34,721 nucleotides of DNA from a virus: positions 1 through 34,721 of the IMG/VR virus record IMGVR_UViG_3300015360_000118; one strand, 5' to 3'. The notes under the pieces are model-generated. The model worked only from the letters and a program-made list of their open reading frames with translations. It did no database searches and was not told where the DNA came from. Shown here piece by piece: positions 184-31,281 of the stretch; the stretch's first letter is position 1; the number at the start of each line of letters is the position of its first letter. A program made the translations under genes and the position numbers.

Positions 184-816
184 ATGGCAAGTAAAGCACC
201 GGTTAAAGATAAAAAAGGCAGTAACACCGGTTATGGTAAAAGCGGGCGCAAAGCTATGCTTAAGAACGCCGCCAAAGACCTACTACCCGAGAAGAAAAAG
301 AAGAAATCCCCAAAAGAAAAGCCAACACTTGAGAAAGCAGCATTAAAAGCGCTCATGGACGCCAAACTATCTCCACAAGAGGAGTATTTTTGTGAGTTAT
401 ACGTATCAGACATAGAGTTTTATGGAAATGGTACACAGAGCTATATAGAAGCCTTTGATATTACCGTTGTACTAGGAAAGTCTCGAGGGGAGACGGACGA
501 CAACGAAATGACTCATGCAACCGTAAGGGCTAATGCAAGCAAGCTCTTGACAGACACCAACATATTGAACCGAATACACGAGCTATTAGAGGACGGCGGC
601 TTCAACGATCAACACGCAGACAAAACACTGCAGTTTTTAATGACACAAAAAGCAGACTTGAGAGTAGCGCTTGGAGCTATCGACGCATATAACAAACTTA
701 TGTCTCGTATACAAGACAGACAACACGTATTGCACTCTTTTGCTAATGAAGACGTCTCGGACGATGAACTACAGCGACGAATAGCCGAGAAGCAGAAGTT
801 CTTTAATAAAAAGTAA
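184..816 (+). CDS. terS: Terminase small subunit
   Basis: A 210-residue protein that should recognise phage DNA and load the large terminase subunit for packaging. A lysine-rich N-terminus (about 1-50) precedes a stretch around 62-140 that follows the Terminase_2 family pattern: LSPQEEYFCELYV, then GNGTQSYIEAF, then ATVRANASKLL and a short NILNRIHELL helix. In known members this forms the DNA-binding helix-turn-helix. The insert between TQSYIEAFDI and TVRANA is longer than usual. The ATG at 184 has no Shine-Dalgarno sequence. TerL lies about 1.5 kb downstream rather than adjacent, with four genes between. Family assignment rests on pattern recognition. Confidence 0.85.
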   Translation: MASKAPVKDKKGSNTGYGKSGRKAMLKNAAKDLLPEKKKKKSPKEKPTLEKAALKALMDAKLSPQEEYFCELYVSDIEFYGNGTQSYIEAFDITVVLGKSRGETDDNEMTHATVRANASKLLTDTNILNRIHELLEDGGFNDQHADKTLQFLMTQKADLRVALGAIDAYNKLMSRIQDRQHVLHSFANEDVSDDELQRRIAEKQKFFNKK

Positions 817-2370: not shown

Positions 2371-3847
2371 AAAGCCCGACAACTACGACTTGCAGCTCCT
2401 AGACTACCGCCTAGAGAATGAAAAGTACCGATACTACGAACCTTCTGGAGTAGGAGAGGACTTTCTCAATGCGTTTGGAAGCAATGACTACTTTATACTC
2501 TTTCTTTCGGCGGCTAATGGAGTGGGCAAAACAGCACTGGCTACCAACATAATCGCAAATATATGCTTTTCTGGTAATAATCCTTGGTTCCGTGGTGGAT
2601 TGTTCGAGAAATGGCAGTATCTAAAGAAGGGACGTATTGTTACAGAATCAGACTTGGTAGAAAAGAACGTGGTAAACGAGCTTAAACAATGGCTCCCCCG
2701 CGGTCGCTACCAGACTAAAAAAGCTGGTAAGCACTTCGAATCCCGTTGGTTTACTGATACCGGCTTCGATTGGGACATTATGACCTATGACCAAGACCCT
2801 ATGCAGTTTGAAGGAATAACGCTCGGTTGGGCTTGGTTTGACGAGCCACCACCAGACCTATTGTTGAAAGCTACAATCTCTCGTATGCGTAAAGGTGGTA
2901 TCATTATTATCACAGCTACACCTATTTCCGGTTCAGCTCACTTGTACGATATGTTCGCCAATGGAGAAATGGAAGTGCAAGTACAGCTTCGAGAAGGAGA
3001 AGACCCTGTAACTGTAAAGCGCCGTGTTTACCACCTTACAGCGGACGTTGAAAGCGTTTGTAAGGAGCATGGTATCCGTGGACACTTGGAGCACCAACAT
3101 ATTGCTCAAATGGTCGCGGAGTATCCGGAAGACGAACGACAAGCTCGTGTATACGGTAAGTTTCAACACCTTGTAGGACTTGTGTTTAAAAAATGGAATA
3201 AACAAGTACACGTAATAGAACCGTTTGCGCTCGACCCGCGCGAGTGGTGCGTTTATCATTCCCTTGACCCGCACCCACGTAACCCAGACGCAGGTATTTG
3301 GCTGGCAGTAAATAGGCAAGGAACCAAGATAGTAGTTGATGAGTATTACAAAAACCCAGACACGGTGCAGGACTTGGGATATGATTTAAAGAAGAAGCAC
3401 TCTCTCTACCGTATGGAAACGCCGTATACCATTGACCCTAGTGCAACGATCGTCGACCAACATACAGAACGTTGTTTGGCTACTATGCTGGAGGACGAAG
3501 GACTTAATTACATTTCAGCGTCAAAGTCTCGAGCGGTAGCAGATAAGCGTATTGAGAACGCCTTGGACTACCGAGAAGTAAACGGACAAATGATAAAGCC
3601 GCCTGAATTGTACGTATTTTCTACTTGTCAGCGTTTCATTTACGAAGTGGAGCACTGGCGCTGGCAAGAGTGGAAGGGCAAAACCAGCTTTGATAAAAAC
3701 CGTAAGGAACAAAAGGTTGATAAAGACGACCACACTATTGAGTGTCTTGGACGTATTTTGTTTCAAGAGCCACAGTTTAGAGAAATGGTTACGCGACAAG
3801 TGCAAAGTGGAGTACAAAAAATGTCTAGCGATGACCCTTACTTTTAA
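2360..3847 (+). CDS. terL: Terminase large subunit (packaging ATPase and nuclease)
   Basis: A 495-residue protein that should drive DNA into the prohead and cut it. The N-terminal ATPase shows a Walker A loop SAANGVGKT at 50-58, a Walker B strand GWAWFDE ending at 162 and a TATPIS coupling motif at 185-190. The C-terminal RNase-H-like nuclease shows SLDPHPRNPDAG (Asp303), VVDEYY around 326-330 and a late KDDHTIECLGRIL that probably supplies the last acidic residue. The length is normal for the family. Its start overlaps the end of the deformylase-like gene. It is followed by a zinc-ribbon gene and then the 1 kb structured non-coding region. Confidence 0.95.
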   Translation: MNAKKPDNYDLQLLDYRLENEKYRYYEPSGVGEDFLNAFGSNDYFILFLSAANGVGKTALATNIIANICFSGNNPWFRGGLFEKWQYLKKGRIVTESDLVEKNVVNELKQWLPRGRYQTKKAGKHFESRWFTDTGFDWDIMTYDQDPMQFEGITLGWAWFDEPPPDLLLKATISRMRKGGIIIITATPISGSAHLYDMFANGEMEVQVQLREGEDPVTVKRRVYHLTADVESVCKEHGIRGHLEHQHIAQMVAEYPEDERQARVYGKFQHLVGLVFKKWNKQVHVIEPFALDPREWCVYHSLDPHPRNPDAGIWLAVNRQGTKIVVDEYYKNPDTVQDLGYDLKKKHSLYRMETPYTIDPSATIVDQHTERCLATMLEDEGLNYISASKSRAVADKRIENALDYREVNGQMIKPPELYVFSTCQRFIYEVEHWRWQEWKGKTSFDKNRKEQKVDKDDHTIECLGRILFQEPQFREMVTRQVQSGVQKMSSDDPYF

Positions 3848-4139: not shown

Positions 4140-4210
4140 CATGGAGCCATTCTTGCCTTAAGCGGTAAGGAAACCATGGAAAGAGCACCACCAGCCGGGG
4201 TGCTCTTTTT
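4140..4210 (+). ncRNA. Candidate small RNA (about 70 nt) with its own terminator
   Basis: CATGG (4140-4144) pairs with CCATG (4174-4178) and encloses a hairpin CCTTA (4156-4160)/TAAGG (4166-4170). The terminator hairpin follows at once. An extended -10 lies just upstream. There is no open frame of note inside. The promoter-structure-terminator layout supports a small non-coding RNA gene; no known family is recognised and the function is unknown. Confidence 0.5.
4180..4210 (+). terminator. Rho-independent terminator
   Basis: AAAGAGCACC (4180-4189) pairs with GGTGCTCTTT (4199-4208) around a 9-base loop and runs into a T tract ending at 4210. This is a textbook intrinsic terminator, placed 40 bases downstream of the small-RNA start region. 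Confidence 0.8.
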
Positions 4211-4240
4211 GTTCTTAACCTTATCTTCATACGCTTTGTT

Positions 4241-4246
4241 TATAAT
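4241..4246 (+). promoter_or_regulatory. -10 hexamer TATAAT ahead of the second structured RNA
   Basis: A perfect TATAAT follows the preceding terminator by 30 bases. I see no good -35 hexamer and the extended TG is one base out of place, so the call rests on the perfect -10 and on the structured RNA with a terminator that follows. Confidence 0.35.
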
Positions 4247-4251
4247 GGGCG

Positions 4252-4458
4252 CTAGGACTGTAACAAATATCCACAGTCTACGGCTATACAGATAGAGCCT
4301 TAAACATGCTATTATGTTCGGGTATGGTTTTGAAACATCAACAATTGAATACTTGCGCAGCTAACCCAACCTCGGAAGACCATACAATTTTCCTTGGGTT
4401 GGCGTCGCTAGTATTGAACAAAAACGTTGTAAGGGCACTCTTTTTGAGTGTCTTTTTT
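4252..4458 (+). ncRNA. Candidate structured RNA (about 205 nt) ending in a terminator
   Basis: A chain of helices: GACTGT/ACAGTC (4256-4278), GGCTAT with ATAGAGCC (4282-4299, one bulge), AACAT/ATGTT (4303-4318), then a long imperfect hairpin in which AATACT (4348-4353) pairs with AGTATT (4410-4415), GCG with CGC, and GCTAACCCAA (4360-4369) with TTGGGTTGGC (4394-4403). An intrinsic terminator closes it at 4434-4458. A 72-codon open frame crosses it but has no start context and shows no family, so RNA is the better reading. The sequence TGCTATTAT at 4307-4315 also resembles an extended -10. Family unknown. Confidence 0.55.
4434..4458 (+). terminator. Rho-independent terminator
   Basis: GGCACTC (4434-4440) pairs with GAGTGTC (4446-4452, one G-U pair) around a TTTTT loop and is followed by six T residues at 4453-4458. 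It ends the second structured RNA. Confidence 0.8.
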
Positions 4459-17283: not shown

Positions 17284-17544
17284 ATGGCAAAAAATACACC
17301 ACAAGAAAAAGTACGAGTAGTCACACCTCAAGACCTTGTAAAAGCTCACGAATCCAACGTGGGTAAGTCACTTTCTGCGTTTGGGTTACAGCAAAGACTT
17401 TTTGTTCACTTTCCAGACAAGAAAAAAGTGCCACTTCTCGGACAACTTGGAGTGTGGCTTGTCAACAAGAAGGGAGGTATTATCGCTACGAAATATGAGT
17501 ACGTAGGTGGTACAATTAACAGTAAGAGTCGCCAGAAAAAATAA
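17284..17544 (+). CDS. Hypothetical basic protein
   Basis: An 86-residue protein with a lysine-rich C-terminus (NSKSRQKK) and a central stretch RLFVHFPDKKKVPLLGQLGVWLVNKKGGIIATKYEYVGG that suggests strands. No family is recognised. It is joined one base from each neighbour, and the next gene starts in a TAATATG junction, so it belongs to the tail/internal-protein operon. Function unknown. Confidence 0.55.
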   Translation: MAKNTPQEKVRVVTPQDLVKAHESNVGKSLSAFGLQQRLFVHFPDKKKVPLLGQLGVWLVNKKGGIIATKYEYVGGTINSKSRQKK

Positions 17545-17545
17545 T

Positions 17546-18841
17546 ATGGCAGCAGCAACATATACAGGAAATTCAGTAGTCGACTACGTCAAATCAACCG
17601 GCGGAGACGCTAGTTTCACTTCTCGCGCAAATCTTGCGGTAAAGCAAGGTATTGTAAAGACAGCAGCAGAATATGTAGGAAACAGTCAACAAAACAACTC
17701 TCTTTTGACAAAGCTCCGTGGCGCACCAGCACCCACAGGAAAGCCCAACGCTACTTCAATAATTAACCAGAACCAAGACGCCGACATTGCAGATACGCCA
17801 GCGGCGGACGACGCACCAACCAAAGAAACTCGAAGTACACGGTATAGTACCGCTTTTTCTGATATTAAAGACATTATTGCACCAGCCGGAAGCTCACCTA
17901 AAGCACCTAATTTTACCGACCTTTACAACAAAACTCGCAAGGACTTAAATGTTGACGATCTGGAAGGGTACGTAAATGAACTACAAACCGAAGAAGAAAA
18001 CATATATGCAGATTTAAGAGAACGGCGTACTGCCGAGCGAGACAAAACAGTAGCTACAAACGTTATAGAAGGGCGTATAGGGCAAGCCGAGCGACAAGAA
18101 ATGGAACGTGTCGACTATATTCAACGTCAAAAAGCAACAGCAGTCCGACAACTCCAAAGTGCTAACGCTACAATCGAAAACATTATCAATTTTGGAAAGC
18201 TAGACTATGATACAGCCCGAAACTCTTACAATGACCAGTTCGCACAGCAAATGTCTATTTTTAGTACCGTAAAAGGAATTGTCGATAGTGAAATTTCAGA
18301 CGAAGAACAGGCTGCAAATACGTCCCGCGCAAACCTTAATATTATTTACAGTTCTATCCGAGAGGGAGAGGTTGACAAAGGCTCACTTACTCCGGAAATG
18401 AAGTACACCATTAACAAAATGGAGCTTTCAGCAGGACTACCAACCGGCTTTTACGAGAATATTAAAAATCAAAACCCAGACGGCAAAATTCTCTCTACTA
18501 CTACTCGAACAAACGGAACACAAAAATATGCAGACGTGCTTATGCGAAATGATGACGGTTCTATTAGTGTAAAATCTGTTTTTCTTGGAACCGAAGTTGC
18601 ACCAAAGTCTGCTTCCGGAGTCAGTGGAGACAATGAGAGTATTGAAGCTTTCCGTTCCGACGCTTCAAAATATATTCTCCAATTAGAAGGAAAAGAAATT
18701 GGTTGGGGAGGAGCGTTTAATGCGCTTAAAGCCAAATACCCACAAGCGAGCGACAATACAATTGACGCAATATTAAAAAAGGACACTTACTATAACACTA
18801 CCCCGTCCACTGAAAAAAAGACCTACAATATAACAGTGTAG
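17546..18841 (+). CDS. Probable internal virion or tail protein
   Basis: A 431-residue protein. The ATG at 17546 follows the previous stop in a TAATATG junction; an upstream in-frame start would overlap the neighbour. The N-terminal 50 residues (SVVDYVKSTGGDASFTSRANLAVKQGI, then YVGNSQQNNSLLTKLRG) match a short module I associate with phage structural proteins and wall-associated proteins. A Pro/Ala/Thr linker is followed by a long coiled coil (about 135-275) and a C-terminal domain with a GWGGAFNALKAKYPQ helix. Placement directly before the giant protein suggests an ejected internal protein, by analogy with other short-tailed phages. Confidence 0.5.
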   Translation: MAAATYTGNSVVDYVKSTGGDASFTSRANLAVKQGIVKTAAEYVGNSQQNNSLLTKLRGAPAPTGKPNATSIINQNQDADIADTPAADDAPTKETRSTRYSTAFSDIKDIIAPAGSSPKAPNFTDLYNKTRKDLNVDDLEGYVNELQTEEENIYADLRERRTAERDKTVATNVIEGRIGQAERQEMERVDYIQRQKATAVRQLQSANATIENIINFGKLDYDTARNSYNDQFAQQMSIFSTVKGIVDSEISDEEQAANTSRANLNIIYSSIREGEVDKGSLTPEMKYTINKMELSAGLPTGFYENIKNQNPDGKILSTTTRTNGTQKYADVLMRNDDGSISVKSVFLGTEVAPKSASGVSGDNESIEAFRSDASKYILQLEGKEIGWGGAFNALKAKYPQASDNTIDAILKKDTYYNTTPSTEKKTYNITV

Positions 18842-18858
18842 AATAATTAAAAAACACT

Positions 18859-21800
18859 ATGGCAACTTGGGACGAGTTAAACAAAACTTACAGTTCAGCA
18901 AAACCAGAGGACGAAAAAAAGAAAGACGAAAAAATCAGCGTCAGTTCTTCTTCTTGGGACGAGCTAAATAAGTGGGGAGACACACAACCCAAAGCCGAAG
19001 TTCAAACTCAAACTCCAGTTGCTACTACACCAACACAGCCAAAGAAACAAAACGACGGCAATATACTTAAGTCTTACTCCAAGGGAGTCCAAGAGGTTGT
19101 AGGGACAAGTGCTGCGTTTGGCGCTTCCGGAGTCATGCGACTTTTTGGAGGATTGCAAGAAGTCGCATTAAAAGCAATCGAACCAGCCAACATTGCAGCG
19201 GCACGTATTGGACAAGGGCTTTATAAAGGACTTGGACTTATTACTCCGGACAACGGCAAATTGTCTAAAGTTGGAGACGACTTTTATACACAAATGCGAA
19301 GCGGGTACAACCAACTACAGGAAGCTTCTTTTGAAGTAAACCGTTCTGCGACAAACATTGGTAATAGAAGTCGAGATACCTTATTAGACAAGACTGGCTT
19401 TGACGAATATAAAAAGGACAACAGTGGAAAAGACTTTTCTTTCAGCGATCTAAAAGACCCTAAATTCTGGCTTTACGACGTATACGGCACAACGGTAGAG
19501 AACGCACCAATAATGGCGGCTACCTTTGTAGTAGGTAAAGGAGCGGGAATGGCGACACAGGGCGCTGGAGTGCTTGCATGGCTGGCAGGAACCGGAGGAG
19601 CGACTACCTTTTCTTTGGGTATGAACGCTTCTATTGAGTCCCAAGCCGCTTATGACACCGCAATGAAGTCCGGAAAGTCGGAGACGCAAGCATTAGTCGA
19701 AGCCGAGCGCGTATTTAACCGTAACTTTACTGCAAACACTTTGTCTGAAACGCTCCAAATGGCGCTACTATTTATGCCACAAGGAGATAAAGTTAAAGCA
19801 ACTTTACCACTTTGGAAGTCTTTAATTAAAAATGCTAGCAAAATTATAGCCGCTGGTGGTATTGAAGTACTCCAAGAGCGCGGAGAAAATGCAATTCAAG
19901 AAGGTGCTAGTAAAGAAGACTTTGATTGGGCAGGTTTTGGTTCAGCTCTAGCAGAAAAAAATGTAACAAAGTCTGATTTTATTTCCTTTGTACTTGGTGC
20001 TGGTATGCAAGGAGTTGGTAACGTTTTTGTTGATAACAAACAAATTTCAGAAGAAGCTTACGACCAAGCAAATGAAATGGCAGCGAAACTTTGGGACGGC
20101 GGGGACACTCCACCACCAACCGGAGAGGCAGCTATTGCTTACCTTGAACAACAGCGCATAGACAACCCAGAAGGGCTTATTGCCGTGTACAAAAATACCG
20201 TGCAAAGCCGGAAAAAGTTTGTGGAAGACGCCAAAGCCTTAACCGCCACAAATCAAGACGGAGCTATCCAATCATTGCCAACGATCACCGCAGAAGACGG
20301 CACCGACCTTGGACGAATTGAAATAAAGAAAAGCGGGGACGGCTTTGTTTCTCGTTTTGTTGGTAATGCTGGAGAAGCAGGAGCACAAACCGACTTTGAC
20401 TACTCAAATGTATTTAATACTCAAGAGGACGCAGCGCAACGAGCTACAGACGCACTTATTATATGGGCAGAACAGGAACGAACTAATGCAAACAATAGTC
20501 CGGTGACACAAAGCCGTCTTGAGGAGCTTATTGCTAATGCCCGTGTAAATAAAAAAGAAGCGCCAATAGAACTGCCAAAAAAAGAACCCGAGTTACCTAG
20601 TGGCTTATTACAAGCTCAACAGATTTTACAACTACTTCAAGAGCAAGGAGTGTCCGGAGCCGACGTTAGTGCCGCTATAAGTAATACTCGCGGGCAAGAA
20701 AGTCTTGGAGTAACTCAATACGAAGGAGCCAATGTATTGCATGAACTCAAAAAAATACAGGAGTCCGGAGGTAAACAAAAGCCAGCGCCACGAACAGAGA
20801 AAGAAACTAAAACCGAAGTTAGTAAGCCTACAGAAACGAAAGCGAACCAGAAAAAGAAAGTCCTACCGAGTACCAAGAAAAAAGCCCGTGCGGACTTCGA
20901 GAAGTCAGCCGACGACGTCAAACCAGAAGAATTAGTAACTATTCAAAAAAGTGTTAATAACGGCAAAGCTAAACTTAATAAACCAAAAACCCAAAAAGAT
21001 CAAGTGAAAGAAGTTATTGACCAAAAAGGTACCGCTTCAATTAAAGATATTAAAGAAACTGAAAAACAAAAAGCCAAAGAAGCAAAGATAATAACAAAAG
21101 AAAATTCTACAAAACCAAAAACGCCCAAAATCCTTACCATAACAGCCAAACCAGAAGACATAGACTTTGAACTTGCAAAACGTGCTCACGAAGGCACCAG
21201 CTTTTACCCAGAAAAACGTGCCGCGTCTCACCAGCAAAGCTACGTGGAAATGGTAAACGACTTTGCACTCGAGCTCGAGCCACTAGCAACCAGTGAAGCT
21301 CAACAGAAAATTGCACAAAACGCAGTTGACCAGTACGCAGGGAAGTTACTTAATGGCTATAAAGCTTACCTAGAAGCCAAAAGTCGCACTATTTCTCCAA
21401 TGATAAGTGGTGCCGGTAATTTCCCCGTAGAACGCAATCGTAAGCGCCTACAAACCCAAATGAAACGGTGGGACGAGGTTGTAGAAATACAAGAAAAGGC
21501 AATAAAGTATACAAAGAAAGCGCTTAAAGAGCAGTCAGTTGTAGACCGTGGAGGAGCCAAAATAGTAGCTCAAGACGAACTTGCCCAAGCAAAAGCAAGT
21601 CTCGAAATGATGAAGTCAGCCAATAAAATCATTAAAAACATTAAGCTTAATGACGAACAAAAGGTAGTGGAGCTTGTAAAACTTCCAGCGATCAGCACAG
21701 ACAGCGCCCGAGAATTACTAAAGCCAGACTATGCCGGACGGCAGGGCTTTGCTTCTTTTAGTCTTACAAGTGTACGTGGAAAGATTAAGCGTATGGAAGG

Positions 21801-24800
21801 AGCCGTGGTAAGTAAAGAGAAAAACGCTCAAGAGGAAGACCGTGTGCTTTTAGAGACTGCCGGTATGCGTATTGAAGAACACCCCCAAGACGAACGTATC
21901 CGCATTTACTTCGAAGGCAAGCCAGACGCAGAAATGAGAAACAAACTCAAGAGTAACGGTTGGAAATACTCACCACTTAATAGTACTTGGCAACGCAAAA
22001 ATACACCGAACGGACGATACAACGTCAAGCAGCTTTTTGGAGAATTACAAACTATGGAGAAGGCAGTGGAGGTAGAAATTGAGAATGTTGCGCCAGTTAA
22101 TCAGAGTGCCAAGCTTAAAATTGTTACTGTAAAAGGTGAAGATATTGAACAATCCTTTTTAGAAGAAAGCGACCGTGATGTAGAAAGAATGAACACATTA
22201 CTAGACAATGCTGGCGTTACTGATGTAACAGTAAAAAGTGCAGTAGTAAGAAAAGACGGTTCTTTTTCCGCTAATATGTCAGACGGTAAAGTGTGGGAAG
22301 ATACACGTTTTGCCGATATTGTTGCAAGCAAAAAACCAGAACTTGATAAAGTTAAACTGATTGAAGACAACCGCAAAGCCTTTAAAAGAAACTACGCAAA
22401 ACTTTCAAAAGCAGGTACTAAATTTAAGAGCACCACAAAGGGAGACTTCTTAAGACCAAAAACCAAGGTTGGAAAAAAAGACCTTAAGGACTTTGTCGAA
22501 GTTGAAGGCGAAATGATATTTACAGTTATTGTTGCCGATTCCATACTTGAAGGGAAGTTAAATGCAGGAAGTGGCAAGTACCACATATACCCATTACACG
22601 CACCAGAGGGGACTAAATACTTATATCGTAAAACTGATACCGGAGAGACAAGACTATTTCCAAGCGCACTCGGACTCGTAGAAGAAAACCTTGAAGAAGG
22701 GCAACTAATTGAGTTTAATATTGAGGACATAAAGCAAGCTGGCACCTATTACAACGCTATAAACCAAGCTGGTGACACTGTTGCTTTTCAGGGTATTCCA
22801 ACCGGAGAGTCTCTCAAAAAAACAAATGGAAAACTACCACTAAAAAACCCACAGACCGGAAAACTGTTTGGTTCCCTTTCACCCGACGAGTGGTTCACTG
22901 TTAATGTTGATCGTGTAATCCCAGACTCAAACTCAATGTCAGACGCAATTGCAGACTTACGAAACGGGCAAAAGTCATTTACAGGACTTCCAATTCTTGT
23001 TCGAGATAACGGCGAAGGGCAATATGAAATAATTGACGGGCACCACCGTTTTGCACAAGCACTATTTGTCGACGAGCAGCAGCAAGTGGTGGTAATGACA
23101 GACGAAGTTAAATACAAAAACCTTAACCGAACAGAATTAGACCAGACCGAGCAAGGGAATTACTCAAGTGGCGGACTTAATGCTTCTGTAGCCTTTGACG
23201 TGCCCATAATTGACGACAAAGGTACTGCAGACCCACGTTTTGACCAAGGTTCTGCGCCACTACCGGCTACAATGGCTCATTTGGACGAAATAAACACCGT
23301 GGAGATACCAGAATTAGTTGATATTGTACGCGAATTATCCGGCAAAGTTCCAGAAATTAAAAAGGCTTTCCGTAAAGTAGGAAAGGGAGGAGACTACAAC
23401 GCTACTTACAACCGTATCCGCGTCCGTGCTGATATGTTTCGCAAGAATAACCTACATAACGGAGCAAAAGTACTGGCTCACGAGCTCGGACACATGATTG
23501 ACGCAGTACCAGACGGAACACTTAACCGCGGAAATCTTATTGGAAGGCTTTTATCTTTGCGTGACTTTATGGGCAGCACTGGTAACCCTACCAGTGGGGA
23601 GCGAGTGACGATAGAACAACGACGAGAAGTAAAGACCAACACTATTAAGGAAGTACAAAAAGAGTTTGGCTATAAAACTCAAAAAGAAGTGCTTGCCGAC
23701 GCTAAAGCAAAAATAGTAATTAAGGAGCGTTTCAAGAAGACCATGGAAATGGTGCTAGAAAAGGACGGCTTTATTCGAGACGAAGTTATCCGGCAAGAAT
23801 TACTCGCAGCAACTCGTTTCTGGACACCTTACAATCCCGCAATGGTACCGGAGTCATACCGAGCGTATCGTGAAAGTGCGGTCGAGCTTTATGCCGAAGC
23901 ATTATCAATGCTTTATATTTCACCACGAAACCTTGCCCGTATTGCACCAACCTTCTACAAGCAATTTTTTGCAAACCTAGATAGTAAACCAACCGTGCGA
24001 GACGCTTACTTTGAAGTGCAAAGTCTACTAGCTGGCGACCGTGACGCAGTAACAGCCCGACGACGTGCCGGAGTTCAGCAAATGTTTAAAGAAGGCGAAC
24101 TGAAAGCAATGGAGCTACACAAAAAAAAGCTCGAAGAAAACAAGTCACAGAAACGAGAAATATGGAAACACCTTAAGCATAAGGTTATTGATAAAAACTT
24201 TCAGATTATCGACCGTGTAAAAGAGCTTGAAAAGAAGGGCACCAGACTAAACCCAGACGAAAACCCTGTATTCTTCCTTGAAGAACGAAATTATGTAGGT
24301 GGAAAAATTAAGGCTATTTTTGAAAAAGAAATTAACCCAATTTATCAAACCCTTACCGACAATGAAATATCTTGGGAGGACTTTGGAGAAGTCCTATTTT
24401 ACGAGCGTGTAGCTTCTGGCGATCGTTCTAATTTTGCAAACCCACGGGGTATTACACCGGACGCAGCAGTAGAACTAATTGCAGAAATGCGCGTCCAGCT
24501 TGGAGTAAAGCGCTGGCTGTTACTACGAGAGCAACTGGCTAACTTCCGTGCAGTGTCTAAACGTATAACTAAAATGGCTTATGAAGCCGGACTTTACAAA
24601 AAGGAAATGTACATAAAAATGAAGAAAAACCCAGCGTACGCAACTTTCCAAGTGCTCGACTTCCTAGAAGAAGGTATGACGTCTCGCATTTATAAGTCAG
24701 TCGGTACCTTCCGAGACATTGCCAATCCTGCAGACTCGACCTTGCTTAAAATGATAACTACTATTAAAGCAGCCGAGCGAAACGTAGTTACGCAAAAAAC

Positions 24801-26757
24801 TGTAGAGTTTTTGAAAGAAAACTACCCCGAAGATATTGAAGAAGCCCAATATACCGGTAGTAAAAAAGGACGATTCCCATTACCACCAAAGGGCAGTAAA
24901 AAGGAGCTCAAGCTTATTACTGTATTTGAAAAAGGAAACCTTAAGGGCTACTACGTAGACCCGTACATTGCCGAGACTATTAACAATCAGTCTTACGGAC
25001 AAAATGCGCCATTGGTACCGACTCTACGCTTCTTTAACGGTACTTTCTTTCGACCGCTTTTTATTCAGTTTAACCTCGGCTTTCAGTCGTTTAACTTACT
25101 ACGTGACTTCTGGCGTTTCTGGAAAACAATGCCAGACGCAACAATCTTAAGTTCAATGAAGGCGTATCACAAAGCCGGAAAAGTGGCTCGTTTCCGTGCC
25201 TTTGGTATACCTAAAAACCCAAGCCCAGCCGACCGAGAAGCCATTGCTCTTTACCAGAGAGCAGAAGAAGCCGGTATTCTTTCCCTCACCTTTAATGACA
25301 TTATTTCCGGACGCAACGCCGAAGATAAACAAATTGAAAAGATACTTGCAGATAGTGGTATTAAAGAATTTCAACCAGAACCAAAGTATGAGGACGTGCC
25401 GCGCTTTGCAAAGCCGGTTGTAGAAGTACTTAACAAAGTTGGTATTCTAAAAGTTGCCAGTAAAACGCTAGGCTTTATTGAAAACCTTGGTAACTACATT
25501 GAAACACTACCTAAAGCTGCCGCCGTGTACGAACTTAAAGGTACCGAAGCCGAGTTTCTTACTCGAGAACAAACAAGCTTTATCCGACGTAAAGTAGGTT
25601 CGCCGGACTTTCTTGCCGGAGGAACATACAAGCCAGCCACAAATGAAATATTCCTATTTTCTAACGCGATTATTCAGGGCATTAGATCAGACATAGAAGT
25701 AGCGACCGACCCAACAACCCGCTCCGGATACTGGTGGAAGACAGCAAAACTGAACTTTCTACCTAAAATTATGATGTATGCGGCACTCATGGGACTTTTT
25801 GGGGACGAAGTAAAAGAAATTATGGAAAGTGCAAGCGAGTACGACCGAACCAACTATACTATTATTCCGCTTGGAAAAGACGAGTTTGGAAAAGCTGTAT
25901 ACTTTCGCCTTCCTTCCGACGAAACAGGACGCTTCCTTGGCGCTACTTTCTGGAAAGTATTATCAGCTCCAACTAATGAGCAGCCAATTGGCTCGGATAT
26001 TATGCAAATAATTTCATACACTGGTGGACAAATTCCGTCGGTTACTCCAGTGGTGGAGATAATTAGTGCCACAGCTCAATACATGAGTGGTAAAAACCCT
26101 TACGACTCGTTCCGAGGACGCAATGTACTATCAGATACGTTATTCCAAGCCGGAGGTATGGAAGCCCATAAAGCTTTTCTTGGCTGGCAGTTCCAGCAAC
26201 TCGGAGGTGGTATTTTTTACAAGTTCTACCACGAAGGAACACCGCCAGAGAAAAAGAGTCTTGTCGAAAAAACCTTTAATTTACCGCTTCTTGGTAATGT
26301 TATAGGACGCTTTGTGCGAGTTAGTGACTATGGAAAGCTAGAAGCATTGCGAGAAATTGAAAACAAAGTAAAGACCGAAGAAGCCCAAGCTTCACTTGAA
26401 AAACGCTCAATAGTAAACACTTACACAAAACAAGCGCAAGAAAACGGAGAACTTACAGAAAACCTAGCAAATCAAATGGTACAAGAATATTTTGGAGGAG
26501 AACCAAATGCTTCACAGTATCAAGAAGCAGACCGCTTGAAAGACCGGCTCCGACTCGAAGTAATACGCGGTTCATCAGAAGCCGAGGTGGTAGCCGTTAT
26601 TGACGCAAATACTAATAATCAAAAGGCGGCAATCTTACTGGAGATCGGTAAGACGTCCACTCAAGAGGAGTTTGACAAGCTAATTTCAGACCTACTAAAC
26701 GCCGGTATTATTACCGACGGAACACTTGAAAAGCTCCAAGAGCGTTCACAGCAATAA
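18859..26757 (+). CDS. Giant polyvalent virion protein (ParB-like, metallopeptidase and LPD-type domains)
   Basis: A 2632-residue protein, probably carried in the head and ejected with DNA. It opens with two WDELNK motifs (4-9, 33-38). A glycine/alanine-rich hydrophobic stretch lies near 214-260. About 775-860 (AHEGTSFYPEKRAASHQ, later GAGNFPVERNRKR) and 1020-1050 (MRNKLKSNGWKYSPLNSTWQ) resemble paired modules of conjugative-element proteins. A ParB/sulfiredoxin-like domain around 1345-1410 has DGHHR at 1393-1397. A zinc-peptidase motif HELGH at 1541-1545 is followed by ELYAEA at 1676-1681, a likely third ligand. From 2065, RPLFIQFNLGF and NLLRDFWRFWK recall an LPD38-type domain. Together this is the 'large polyvalent protein' style; enzymatic activity is inferred only. 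Confidence 0.75.
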   Translation: MATWDELNKTYSSAKPEDEKKKDEKISVSSSSWDELNKWGDTQPKAEVQTQTPVATTPTQPKKQNDGNILKSYSKGVQEVVGTSAAFGASGVMRLFGGLQEVALKAIEPANIAAARIGQGLYKGLGLITPDNGKLSKVGDDFYTQMRSGYNQLQEASFEVNRSATNIGNRSRDTLLDKTGFDEYKKDNSGKDFSFSDLKDPKFWLYDVYGTTVENAPIMAATFVVGKGAGMATQGAGVLAWLAGTGGATTFSLGMNASIESQAAYDTAMKSGKSETQALVEAERVFNRNFTANTLSETLQMALLFMPQGDKVKATLPLWKSLIKNASKIIAAGGIEVLQERGENAIQEGASKEDFDWAGFGSALAEKNVTKSDFISFVLGAGMQGVGNVFVDNKQISEEAYDQANEMAAKLWDGGDTPPPTGEAAIAYLEQQRIDNPEGLIAVYKNTVQSRKKFVEDAKALTATNQDGAIQSLPTITAEDGTDLGRIEIKKSGDGFVSRFVGNAGEAGAQTDFDYSNVFNTQEDAAQRATDALIIWAEQERTNANNSPVTQSRLEELIANARVNKKEAPIELPKKEPELPSGLLQAQQILQLLQEQGVSGADVSAAISNTRGQESLGVTQYEGANVLHELKKIQESGGKQKPAPRTEKETKTEVSKPTETKANQKKKVLPSTKKKARADFEKSADDVKPEELVTIQKSVNNGKAKLNKPKTQKDQVKEVIDQKGTASIKDIKETEKQKAKEAKIITKENSTKPKTPKILTITAKPEDIDFELAKRAHEGTSFYPEKRAASHQQSYVEMVNDFALELEPLATSEAQQKIAQNAVDQYAGKLLNGYKAYLEAKSRTISPMISGAGNFPVERNRKRLQTQMKRWDEVVEIQEKAIKYTKKALKEQSVVDRGGAKIVAQDELAQAKASLEMMKSANKIIKNIKLNDEQKVVELVKLPAISTDSARELLKPDYAGRQGFASFSLTSVRGKIKRMEGAVVSKEKNAQEEDRVLLETAGMRIEEHPQDERIRIYFEGKPDAEMRNKLKSNGWKYSPLNSTWQRKNTPNGRYNVKQLFGELQTMEKAVEVEIENVAPVNQSAKLKIVTVKGEDIEQSFLEESDRDVERMNTLLDNAGVTDVTVKSAVVRKDGSFSANMSDGKVWEDTRFADIVASKKPELDKVKLIEDNRKAFKRNYAKLSKAGTKFKSTTKGDFLRPKTKVGKKDLKDFVEVEGEMIFTVIVADSILEGKLNAGSGKYHIYPLHAPEGTKYLYRKTDTGETRLFPSALGLVEENLEEGQLIEFNIEDIKQAGTYYNAINQAGDTVAFQGIPTGESLKKTNGKLPLKNPQTGKLFGSLSPDEWFTVNVDRVIPDSNSMSDAIADLRNGQKSFTGLPILVRDNGEGQYEIIDGHHRFAQALFVDEQQQVVVMTDEVKYKNLNRTELDQTEQGNYSSGGLNASVAFDVPIIDDKGTADPRFDQGSAPLPATMAHLDEINTVEIPELVDIVRELSGKVPEIKKAFRKVGKGGDYNATYNRIRVRADMFRKNNLHNGAKVLAHELGHMIDAVPDGTLNRGNLIGRLLSLRDFMGSTGNPTSGERVTIEQRREVKTNTIKEVQKEFGYKTQKEVLADAKAKIVIKERFKKTMEMVLEKDGFIRDEVIRQELLAATRFWTPYNPAMVPESYRAYRESAVELYAEALSMLYISPRNLARIAPTFYKQFFANLDSKPTVRDAYFEVQSLLAGDRDAVTARRRAGVQQMFKEGELKAMELHKKKLEENKSQKREIWKHLKHKVIDKNFQIIDRVKELEKKGTRLNPDENPVFFLEERNYVGGKIKAIFEKEINPIYQTLTDNEISWEDFGEVLFYERVASGDRSNFANPRGITPDAAVELIAEMRVQLGVKRWLLLREQLANFRAVSKRITKMAYEAGLYKKEMYIKMKKNPAYATFQVLDFLEEGMTSRIYKSVGTFRDIANPADSTLLKMITTIKAAERNVVTQKTVEFLKENYPEDIEEAQYTGSKKGRFPLPPKGSKKELKLITVFEKGNLKGYYVDPYIAETINNQSYGQNAPLVPTLRFFNGTFFRPLFIQFNLGFQSFNLLRDFWRFWKTMPDATILSSMKAYHKAGKVARFRAFGIPKNPSPADREAIALYQRAEEAGILSLTFNDIISGRNAEDKQIEKILADSGIKEFQPEPKYEDVPRFAKPVVEVLNKVGILKVASKTLGFIENLGNYIETLPKAAAVYELKGTEAEFLTREQTSFIRRKVGSPDFLAGGTYKPATNEIFLFSNAIIQGIRSDIEVATDPTTRSGYWWKTAKLNFLPKIMMYAALMGLFGDEVKEIMESASEYDRTNYTIIPLGKDEFGKAVYFRLPSDETGRFLGATFWKVLSAPTNEQPIGSDIMQIISYTGGQIPSVTPVVEIISATAQYMSGKNPYDSFRGRNVLSDTLFQAGGMEAHKAFLGWQFQQLGGGIFYKFYHEGTPPEKKSLVEKTFNLPLLGNVIGRFVRVSDYGKLEALREIENKVKTEEAQASLEKRSIVNTYTKQAQENGELTENLANQMVQEYFGGEPNASQYQEADRLKDRLRLEVIRGSSEAEVVAVIDANTNNQKAAILLEIGKTSTQEEFDKLISDLLNAGIITDGTLEKLQERSQQ

Positions 26758-29687: not shown

Positions 29688-30539
29688 ATGAACAACGTCG
29701 CCAAAGAATTAGAGACAACCGCCGAAATCATAGAAGTAACGGAACCAAGAACAATCCAGACGCACTACCAAGATAATTCAATCGAAAGTTTTATTAGTGC
29801 TGCAATCGCACAACAACTACCAATTGAAACCATTAAAGAGTTCTTGGTAATGAGAAAAGAACTAAAGGCAGACCAAGCAAAAGAATCCTTTACAATCGCA
29901 ATGGCACAGTTTCAAAAAGACTGTCCCGTGATCGCAAAGACCAAAGAAGTGAAGAACAAGGAAGGGAAAGTTACGTACCGGTATGCGCTGCTTGACTCTA
30001 TTATTATTCAAGTGAAAGACGTACTTGGAGAAAATAAGCTTTCGTATGATTTTAGTGAAGCTAGGAACAAAGAAGACGGGACAATGACGGTAACGTGTAC
30101 TATCACGCACTCGCTCGGTCACACTAAAAGCAGTTCTTTCACTGTAGAAATCGGAACCGAAGCGTACATGACTGATGTACAAAAACACGGCGCTCGCAAC
30201 ACTTTTGCCAAGCGATACGCTTTTATTAACGTTCTCGGTATTGTTACTGGAGACGAAGACACTGACGCAAAAGAAATTTTGAGTCCGGAGGACAAGAAGC
30301 AAGCCGCCAAAGAAGAACTGCAAAACAGGGACGTATCAATGGAGCTTTCTGTAATCAGTAGTTGCAAAGACTTGGAGTCACTCAAGCGTATTTGGATTGG
30401 ATTGTCTCCAGCACAACGCGAGAATGAAAAGCTTATCGAAGTAAAAGAGACAATGAAAATTAAACTCGAACAGGACGCAGCCGAAGAAGGCGAGCAAAAA
30501 GAAGAAGCGGGCAACGAGGTAAGCGATAAGAAATCTTAA
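29688..30539 (+). CDS. erf: ERF-family single-strand annealing protein
   Basis: A 283-residue protein that should anneal complementary single strands during phage recombination. The ERF core spans about 35-195: SFISAAIAQQLPIETIKEFL, KESFTIAMAQFQKDCPVI, then YALLDSIIIQVKDVLGENKLSY, and the signature QKHGARNTFAKRYAFINVLGI at 166-186, followed by GDEDTDA. The last 80 residues are an acidic helical tail typical of annealing proteins. The YqaJ nuclease starts one base after its stop, making a two-component recombination pair like Red or RecET. Confidence 0.92.
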   Translation: MNNVAKELETTAEIIEVTEPRTIQTHYQDNSIESFISAAIAQQLPIETIKEFLVMRKELKADQAKESFTIAMAQFQKDCPVIAKTKEVKNKEGKVTYRYALLDSIIIQVKDVLGENKLSYDFSEARNKEDGTMTVTCTITHSLGHTKSSSFTVEIGTEAYMTDVQKHGARNTFAKRYAFINVLGIVTGDEDTDAKEILSPEDKKQAAKEELQNRDVSMELSVISSCKDLESLKRIWIGLSPAQRENEKLIEVKETMKIKLEQDAAEEGEQKEEAGNEVSDKKS

Positions 30540-30540
30540 T

Positions 30541-31281
30541 ATGAGAATACTAGAATTAGAGCAGGGCTCCGAGGAGTGGCTAAAAGCCAGAGAGGGTAAA
30601 ATTACCGGCACAAAGCTTAAGGAGGTAGCCAGCGCAAGTACCCCGTTAAAAGCTGACATCATAAACGAGCTCGACAAAAGCAGTCTTCTTTATAAGAAGA
30701 CTGCCACAATCCCCCAACTTATGGCGTTATTACCACCGGCAGCGCAGCAAATGTTGAAGTCTCGAATTCCAAAAAAACTTGGTTTTTATGAAATTCTTGC
30801 CGAAAAAATTGCTTACGAAAAAGGGGACGCAAATCCTATGGACAGAGGAACCGAACTTGAGCCAGAAGCTCGAGCAGCCGTAGCAGCAAAGCTTAATAAA
30901 GAAATTGTAGAAGTAGGTATTTGTGTGCATGATAAACACGATGATATATCTGTTTCTCCCGACGGACTCATTTACGAAAAAGACAAGCCCGTGTATGCAG
31001 TAGAGATTAAGTGTCTATCAACCGCTCGCCACCTACAAGCCCTTGTTGAGCAAAAAATTCCTGATGATTATAAGTTTCAAGTGTTGCAATACTTCATTGT
31101 AATTGACGAACTGGAGGTGCTTTTCTTCTCGTTTTACGACCCCCGTATTGTAGGACACGAACTTGTAATTATTGAAGTTCACCGAGACGAAGTACAAAAA
31201 GAAGTGGAGCAGTGGTTCAACTACCAAGTGGAAACTCTTGCCGAAATCAATGATTTAGCAACTTTATACAGCAATTATTAA
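30541..31281 (+). CDS. YqaJ-like exonuclease
   Basis: A 246-residue PD-(D/E)XK nuclease expected to resect DNA ends for the ERF protein. Visible family blocks: GSEEWLKAREGKITGTKL at 9-26, DRGTELEPEAR at 101-111, SPDGLI with Asp141, VEIK at 154-157 (Glu155, Lys157) and FQVLQYF at 179-185. These supply the metal-binding and catalytic residues, so it looks active. It is coupled with the ERF gene and followed by a coiled-coil gene at one base distance. Confidence 0.9.
   Translation: MRILELEQGSEEWLKAREGKITGTKLKEVASASTPLKADIINELDKSSLLYKKTATIPQLMALLPPAAQQMLKSRIPKKLGFYEILAEKIAYEKGDANPMDRGTELEPEARAAVAAKLNKEIVEVGICVHDKHDDISVSPDGLIYEKDKPVYAVEIKCLSTARHLQALVEQKIPDDYKFQVLQYFIVIDELEVLFFSFYDPRIVGHELVIIEVHRDEVQKEVEQWFNYQVETLAEINDLATLYSNY

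Follow-up and report, generated by a model that had tools for sequence, protein, structure and literature searches.

The giant gene and its genomic setting

The window considered here is a single IMG/VR virus record, taken over its whole length of 34,721 bases. At positions 18859-26757 of the plus strand, on which the parts of the protein and the gene just upstream also lie, a giant polyvalent protein gene is found. Its product, P0001, is encoded by one open frame of 2632 residues with an ATG start and no internal stop, exactly as described in an earlier note on this DNA. The gene belongs to a late block on one strand, in which the small terminase, large terminase, SU10-type portal (Pfam PF23899, E 1.8e-22), scaffold-like, major capsid and tail-like genes are followed by a 444-aa gene, the giant gene and then holin-like and amidase genes. 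The major capsid protein matches PHROG 1357 (E 3.7e-75) and shows 38% identity to the capsid protein of Bacillus phage Pascal, a Pagevirus with a portal annotated as podovirus-type. The 444-aa gene (17507-18841) encodes a candidate second virion or ejection protein, as judged from synteny and PHROG matches. In fact, a tightly linked ORF (about 260-1050 aa) lies 5' of the giant gene in every relative with the start covered. Residues 11-98 of the 444-aa protein match the front part of L-alanyl-D-glutamate peptidases from phages (PHROG 2307, E 3.5e-11) and a weak match to a virion structural protein is also found; a wall-related module is thus possibly present in this candidate virion protein. 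In another part of the window (29688-31281), recombination genes that look ERF-like and YqaJ-like by inspection of the sequence alone stand side by side.

Searches of Pfam, NCBIfam and PDB sequences with the whole protein gave almost no matches. Two of them, to a type III secretion stator (NCBIfam, E 0.027) and to YmgD (PDB, E 0.62), were rejected as chance. The giant protein, from a short-tailed phage, is a polyvalent protein of the phage type in the sense of Iyer et al. (2017; PMC5512222). Such proteins carry at least two biochemically unrelated domains per chain and are encoded with terminase-portal structural genes; P0001 joins a DUF3560-like module, a zincin and a helical carrier, together with a probable ParB/sulfiredoxin domain, and its gene has the terminases, portal and capsid upstream on the same strand and the lysis genes downstream. 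Proteins of this class are also packaged and injected, a property to which homology to a virion protein points in the case of P0001 (see below). The class has been known since 2017, when its zincin, ParB-type and LPD38 parts were already listed. What is new is P0001 as a member, the DUF3560-like cargo inside a phage-type chain, and the measured contrast between a constant C-terminal and a variable N-terminal part.

The N-terminal part and its cargo

No phage match was found for the N-terminal 754 residues of P0001. The first 40 residues (18859-18978) contain the motif WDELNK twice, at residues 4-9 and 33-38. The N termini of relatives L006, L012, L013 and L020 likewise bear a short motif in two or three copies, with a sequence that differs from one relative to another, and this repeated motif could be a packaging or partner-binding tag. 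A hydrophobic segment rich in Gly and Ala follows at residues 200-270 (19456-19668; top hydropathy window 218-248), and most complete relatives have a comparable segment in their own N-terminal part; from its composition, a role in membrane insertion is possible. Residues 600-767 (20656-21159) form a Lys-rich low-complexity linker (22% K+R, net charge +13).

The linker leads into the DUF3560-like module (residues 768-1060; 21160-22038), which is supported by PHROG 19458 (E 7.8e-30) and PHROG 6744 (E 1.3e-28), by tblastn against plasmids and by an alignment of 19 module sequences with an invariant LKSNG.K...W.R pattern. By tblastn, 399 plasmid records match P0001 and, among the matches listed, all fall in residues 768-1060; no plasmid match was found for residues 1060-1280. 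The idea of the earlier note that modules known from plasmids and integrative conjugative elements are built into the chain is thus confirmed for this region. The module aligns along the whole of stand-alone proteins of about 300 aa from phages and plasmids, one of which has its gene beside RadC/JAB and ParA/ParB genes on a conjugative plasmid of Rahnella. Pfam DUF3560 (PF12083) is matched by module relatives L041 and L046 (about 1e-36) and by L040 (0.002), and P0001 itself has no Pfam DUF3560 match. The name 'primase' borne by PHROG 19458 was set aside because the phage member inspected bears this name as a bare annotation and the relatives match DUF3560. Plasmid DUF3560-type proteins stand alone or are joined to LPD29, a polyvalent-protein domain (L041), whereas that of P0001 is fused inside a phage-type polyvalent protein. 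In one study, DUF3560 figures solely as a target of CRISPR spacers that is present on about 1,000 plasmids, and no described function for DUF3560-like modules was found in the literature consulted. A further phage protein of 1468 aa (L036, 2602-7005), without any Pfam match, has a portal-like start followed by a ParB-like GHHR motif and a DUF3560-like module.

Residues 1340-1430 (22876-23148) probably form a domain of the ParB/sulfiredoxin superfamily. The motif DGHHR, on which the earlier note had based this reading, is present at residues 1393-1397, and several weak profile matches agree with it: PHROG 26387 ('ParB-like partition nuclease', E 0.0012), Pfam ParB_N (E 0.0055, below the cut-off) and, among the best PDB sequence matches, the ParB/sulfiredoxin-fold proteins SerK, Spo0J and Noc, each individually insignificant. 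DdrB-ParB (PF18763) is absent from the Pfam matches of P0001 up to E 1. The AlphaFold2 model has a pLDDT under 50 over this part. Its nearest neighbour among PDB sequences being the free serine kinase SerK, the domain could carry out kinase or nucleotide chemistry just as well as DNA cutting.

The zincin-like metallopeptidase

Residues 1470-1760 (23266-24138) are, from motif conservation and predicted fold, a zincin-like metallopeptidase with a predicted metal site. The HELGH motif (residues 1541-1545; 23479-23493) is followed by ELYAEA (1676-1681), which begins with Glu1676 (23884-23886). In an alignment of 22 sequences, H1541, E1542, H1545 and E1676 are invariant (22/22), as are E1647 and A1679, and D1548 is found in 20. 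Both motifs had been pointed out earlier, with Glu1676 or Glu1680 as putative ligands. Position 1680 is Asp in 17 sequences, Glu in four and Gln in one, and the third metal ligand is therefore likely to be the invariant Glu1676 and not residue 1680.

In the AlphaFold2 model of residues 1225-1770, the peptidase is predicted with confidence, with blocks at about 77-95 around both motif helices. Foldseek against the PDB returned no significant match for this model or for that of residues 1462-2632. On re-alignment with VIA-align, zincins rank at the top, led by the protease domain of anthrax lethal factor, whose Z of 7.9 over 139 residues falls in the range where the tool warns of a common arrangement; further zincin matches include PprI (6.4), ArdC of R388 (4.0), abylysin (3.9), M32 carboxypeptidase and LTA4 hydrolase, and the second model again gives zincins. 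The match covers the HExxH helix and the region of the downstream Glu helix, in agreement with the peptidase proposed in the earlier note. Lethal factor (entry 4dv8) is also the structure with which the peptidase of the N4 virion RNA polymerase (vRNAP) has been unified (Iyer et al., 2017; PMC5512222). In the same work, a phage-type MPTase clade was characterized by an Asp three residues after HExxH and by a conserved His at the end of strand 2. The Asp is present in P0001 as D1548, but the family alignment has no conserved His column upstream of HExxH, and because of this absence the P0001 peptidase was not filed in that clade. Identity with the antirestriction protein ArdC was rejected, as no ArdC-N Pfam match was found up to E 1 and the zincin resembles that of ArdC only at Z 4.0.

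The helical carrier and its homologues

The remainder of the chain, residues 1760-2632 (24136-26754), is a helical carrier recognized by its homology in the relatives, in BFVD, in gp69 of Burkholderia phage JC1 and in gp19 of phage Pascal. The model of residues 1462-2632 has a mean pLDDT of 76 and a pTM of 0.63, and a BFVD search with it gave 57 matches at E <= 0.001 (best 2e-40), many of which are annotated as 'Large polyvalent protein associated domain'. Pfam LPD38 (PF18857) is not matched directly by P0001. Relative L026 matches it at E 9.2e-5, below the cut-off, and a gapless alignment to this match places an LPD38-equivalent at residues 2319-2425 of P0001 (25813-26133). Pfam matches obtained with slices of the C-terminal part were at chance level and were discarded.

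One homologue is JC1 gp69, to which the C-terminal family profile matches with E 1.4e-18 (best of 300 shuffled decoys, E 0.13). The match spans residues 3910-4190, directly before the LPD38 annotated at 4195-4401 (PMC9144972). This protein has been found in CsCl-purified virions by mass spectrometry, with 51 unique peptides, and gp68, encoded by the gene directly upstream, is likewise in virions (PMC9144972). By this homology, P0001 is itself likely packaged and injected, which lends support to the ejected polyvalent protein that the earlier note had envisaged; nothing was found that speaks against its presence in virions.

JC1 gp69 and Bcep22 gp75 (DarB-like, with LPD38) share the homologous C-terminal carrier with P0001. 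In addition, gp69 has an HExxH motif upstream of the carrier (residue 3465), and in JC1, as in the phage studied here, a virion protein gene (510 aa) lies upstream and a lysis module downstream. On the other hand, gp69 is much longer (4515 aa), its cargo consists of lytic transglycosylase, methylase, helicase and LPD3, and a DUF3560-like module has not been reported in it. Another example is Pascal gp19, matched by the C-terminal family profile with E 5.6e-29 and encoded at the same position before holin and endolysin. It has the homologous carrier but only 1672 aa, no HExxH motif and no detected similarity to the P0001 cargo. This isolated-phage protein is annotated as hypothetical (NC_027372.1, 18364-23382; L069). 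Since it lacks HExxH, the carrier can occur without the peptidase, which is thus not essential to it.

A constant C-terminal half behind variable fronts

Peptidase and carrier, in this order, form a conserved unit (residues 1470-2632) in 26 relatives. With the full-length query, the only isolated-phage protein found over the C-terminal half was gp20 of Pelagibacter phage EXVC032P Baldr. Single-sequence scans of viral contigs with the metallopeptidase and ParB parts found no relative, so alignment-based scans were needed; these gave 1 + 22 further relatives in viral contigs and three in genome contigs. For example, the viral-contig relative L006 is 44% identical over residues 1472-2612. Baldr gp20, encoded after the tail tubular genes, aligns over residues 1452-2575 with 23% identity and keeps HELGH and the E1676 motif, but shows no similarity to residues 1-1450. 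A search for the major capsid in the records of four relatives, run without a positive control, gave no match.

Residues 1416-2632 align with 24 relatives, whereas residues 1-1415 align with none of those 24. Among 19 complete proteins, the part after HExxH measures 1091 +/- 69 aa, whereas the part before it measures 1201 +/- 465 aa and spreads from 552 to 2543 aa. The fronts carry very different cargo, such as SLT and GGDEF in L026, an Eco57I-type methylase and an SNF2 helicase in L012, a DarB-like match in one relative and ART-PolyVal in one relative. The chain of L012 (2558-13186; 3543 aa) has DnaJ-like, ParB-like (DGSHR), methylase and helicase parts ahead of the shared peptidase and carrier.

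The resemblance to the virion RNA polymerase of phage N4

A similar architecture has been described in a 2025 preprint for the N4 virion RNA polymerase gp50, in which an N-terminal domain presumed to be a membrane part is followed by the polymerase, by C1, which is zincin-like, and by C2, which is large, helical and without known structural relatives (PMC12633501). P0001 shares with it the presumed membrane N-terminal part, the cargo, the HExxH zincin-like part and the large helical part. The cargo of gp50 is a T7-type RNA polymerase, unlike that of P0001, in which no Pfam or PHROG match to an RNA polymerase domain was found; P0001 is thus not an N4-type virion RNA polymerase. The C-terminal family profile has no match in the N4 gp50 sequence, and the zincin and most of C2 are without a sequence-level match. 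When the P0001 C-terminal family was compared, profile against profile, with 11 Schitoviridae-type proteins, a single match was obtained (score 46.2, about 136 columns), between residues 2132-2287 of P0001 and 3300-3443 of N4, both approximate; the maximum score with 100 column-shuffled profiles was 26.1. VIA-align with N4 gp50 (9pnr) gave a collinear span with a Z of 5.5, which for helical proteins is still within the noise. The end of the carrier and the C terminus of the N4 polymerase are probably distantly homologous, which does not amount to membership of one family.

A proposed course from packaging to the release of cargo

The best explanation for these observations, and one held with considerable confidence, is that P0001 is a packaged and ejected polyvalent protein. 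The giant protein would be made late, together with the capsid and tail proteins, and its C-terminal helical/LPD38 carrier would load the chain into the head and let it leave through the tail, ahead of the DNA or with it. The hydrophobic N-terminal segment may help the protein into or across the envelope, or may line it. The DUF3560-like and ParB/sulfiredoxin-fold cargo would reach the cytoplasm as infection begins and would there probably act on nucleotides or on the incoming DNA. The zincin adjoining the carrier would most likely free this cargo by self-cutting, either before or after ejection, although self-cleavage of the giant protein is proposed with slightly less than even confidence. 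Iyer et al. (2017; PMC5512222) had already put forward this scheme of packaging and processing by a zincin; in the same work, the N4 polymerase is reported as packaged uncut. An ordinary intracellular enzyme, early or late and never packaged, is highly improbable, considering that the gene lies among head, tail and lysis genes and that a homologous carrier is in JC1 virions.

The function of the delivered parts admits other readings. The earlier note saw in the protein a candidate counter-defence or take-over factor delivered with the genome. In this reading, the cargo of the ejected effector would disable defences or protect the entering DNA, and the peptidase would attack host proteins. This is a tentative possibility, one among several functions that the cargo could have. 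The plasmid-type module is common to conjugative elements (including L028 and L029), which also meet defences on entry, DarB-like antirestriction cargo is found in relatives (L012), and the Dar proteins of P1 are virion-borne antirestriction factors (PMC9144972). However, no defence or counter-defence model was matched in PADLOC, DUF3560 has no function described in the literature consulted, and conservation of the peptidase alongside cargoes so unlike one another is easier to reconcile with processing or delivery than with a single host target. Both peptidase and carrier are found with many different cargoes, which makes a task in packaging, processing and delivery more likely for them than one in attack.

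A purely structural role is unlikely, although several features point in its direction. P0001 would then be an ejectosome protein, like T7 gp16 or that of N4, with all of its parts serving DNA translocation and the ParB- and DUF3560-like parts only binding the entering DNA. The syntenic Pascal gp19 has the carrier without the peptidase, the upstream gene is linked as in ejection-protein operons, and both the hydrophobic segment and the similarity to the N4 C terminus are consistent with such a function. But a cargo that is wholly different among relatives, and that includes enzymatic SLT, GGDEF and methylase-helicase parts, is unexpected if translocation were the only task.

A possible delivery unit with interchangeable cargo

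Returning to the packaged and ejected polyvalent protein, a wider reading may be put forward as a speculative one. A shared ejection chassis, consisting of the helical/LPD38 carrier and usually a zincin, and distantly related to the N4 polymerase C terminus, would deliver interchangeable cargo, in this case a DUF3560-type protein of conjugative plasmids. By implication, DUF3560-type proteins would act at the very beginning of DNA entry, in phages as well as in plasmids. If true, the constant C-terminal part would be a recognizable delivery unit for injected cargo across unrelated short-tailed phages, and the variable fronts found from it would therefore provide a catalogue of the effectors of the first minute of infection. 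The DUF3560-type genes of plasmids, very common and without an assigned function, would gain a testable role at DNA entry. Finally, a mutant in Glu1542 would be a simple way to test whether polyvalent proteins are processed by their zincins, as proposed in 2017.
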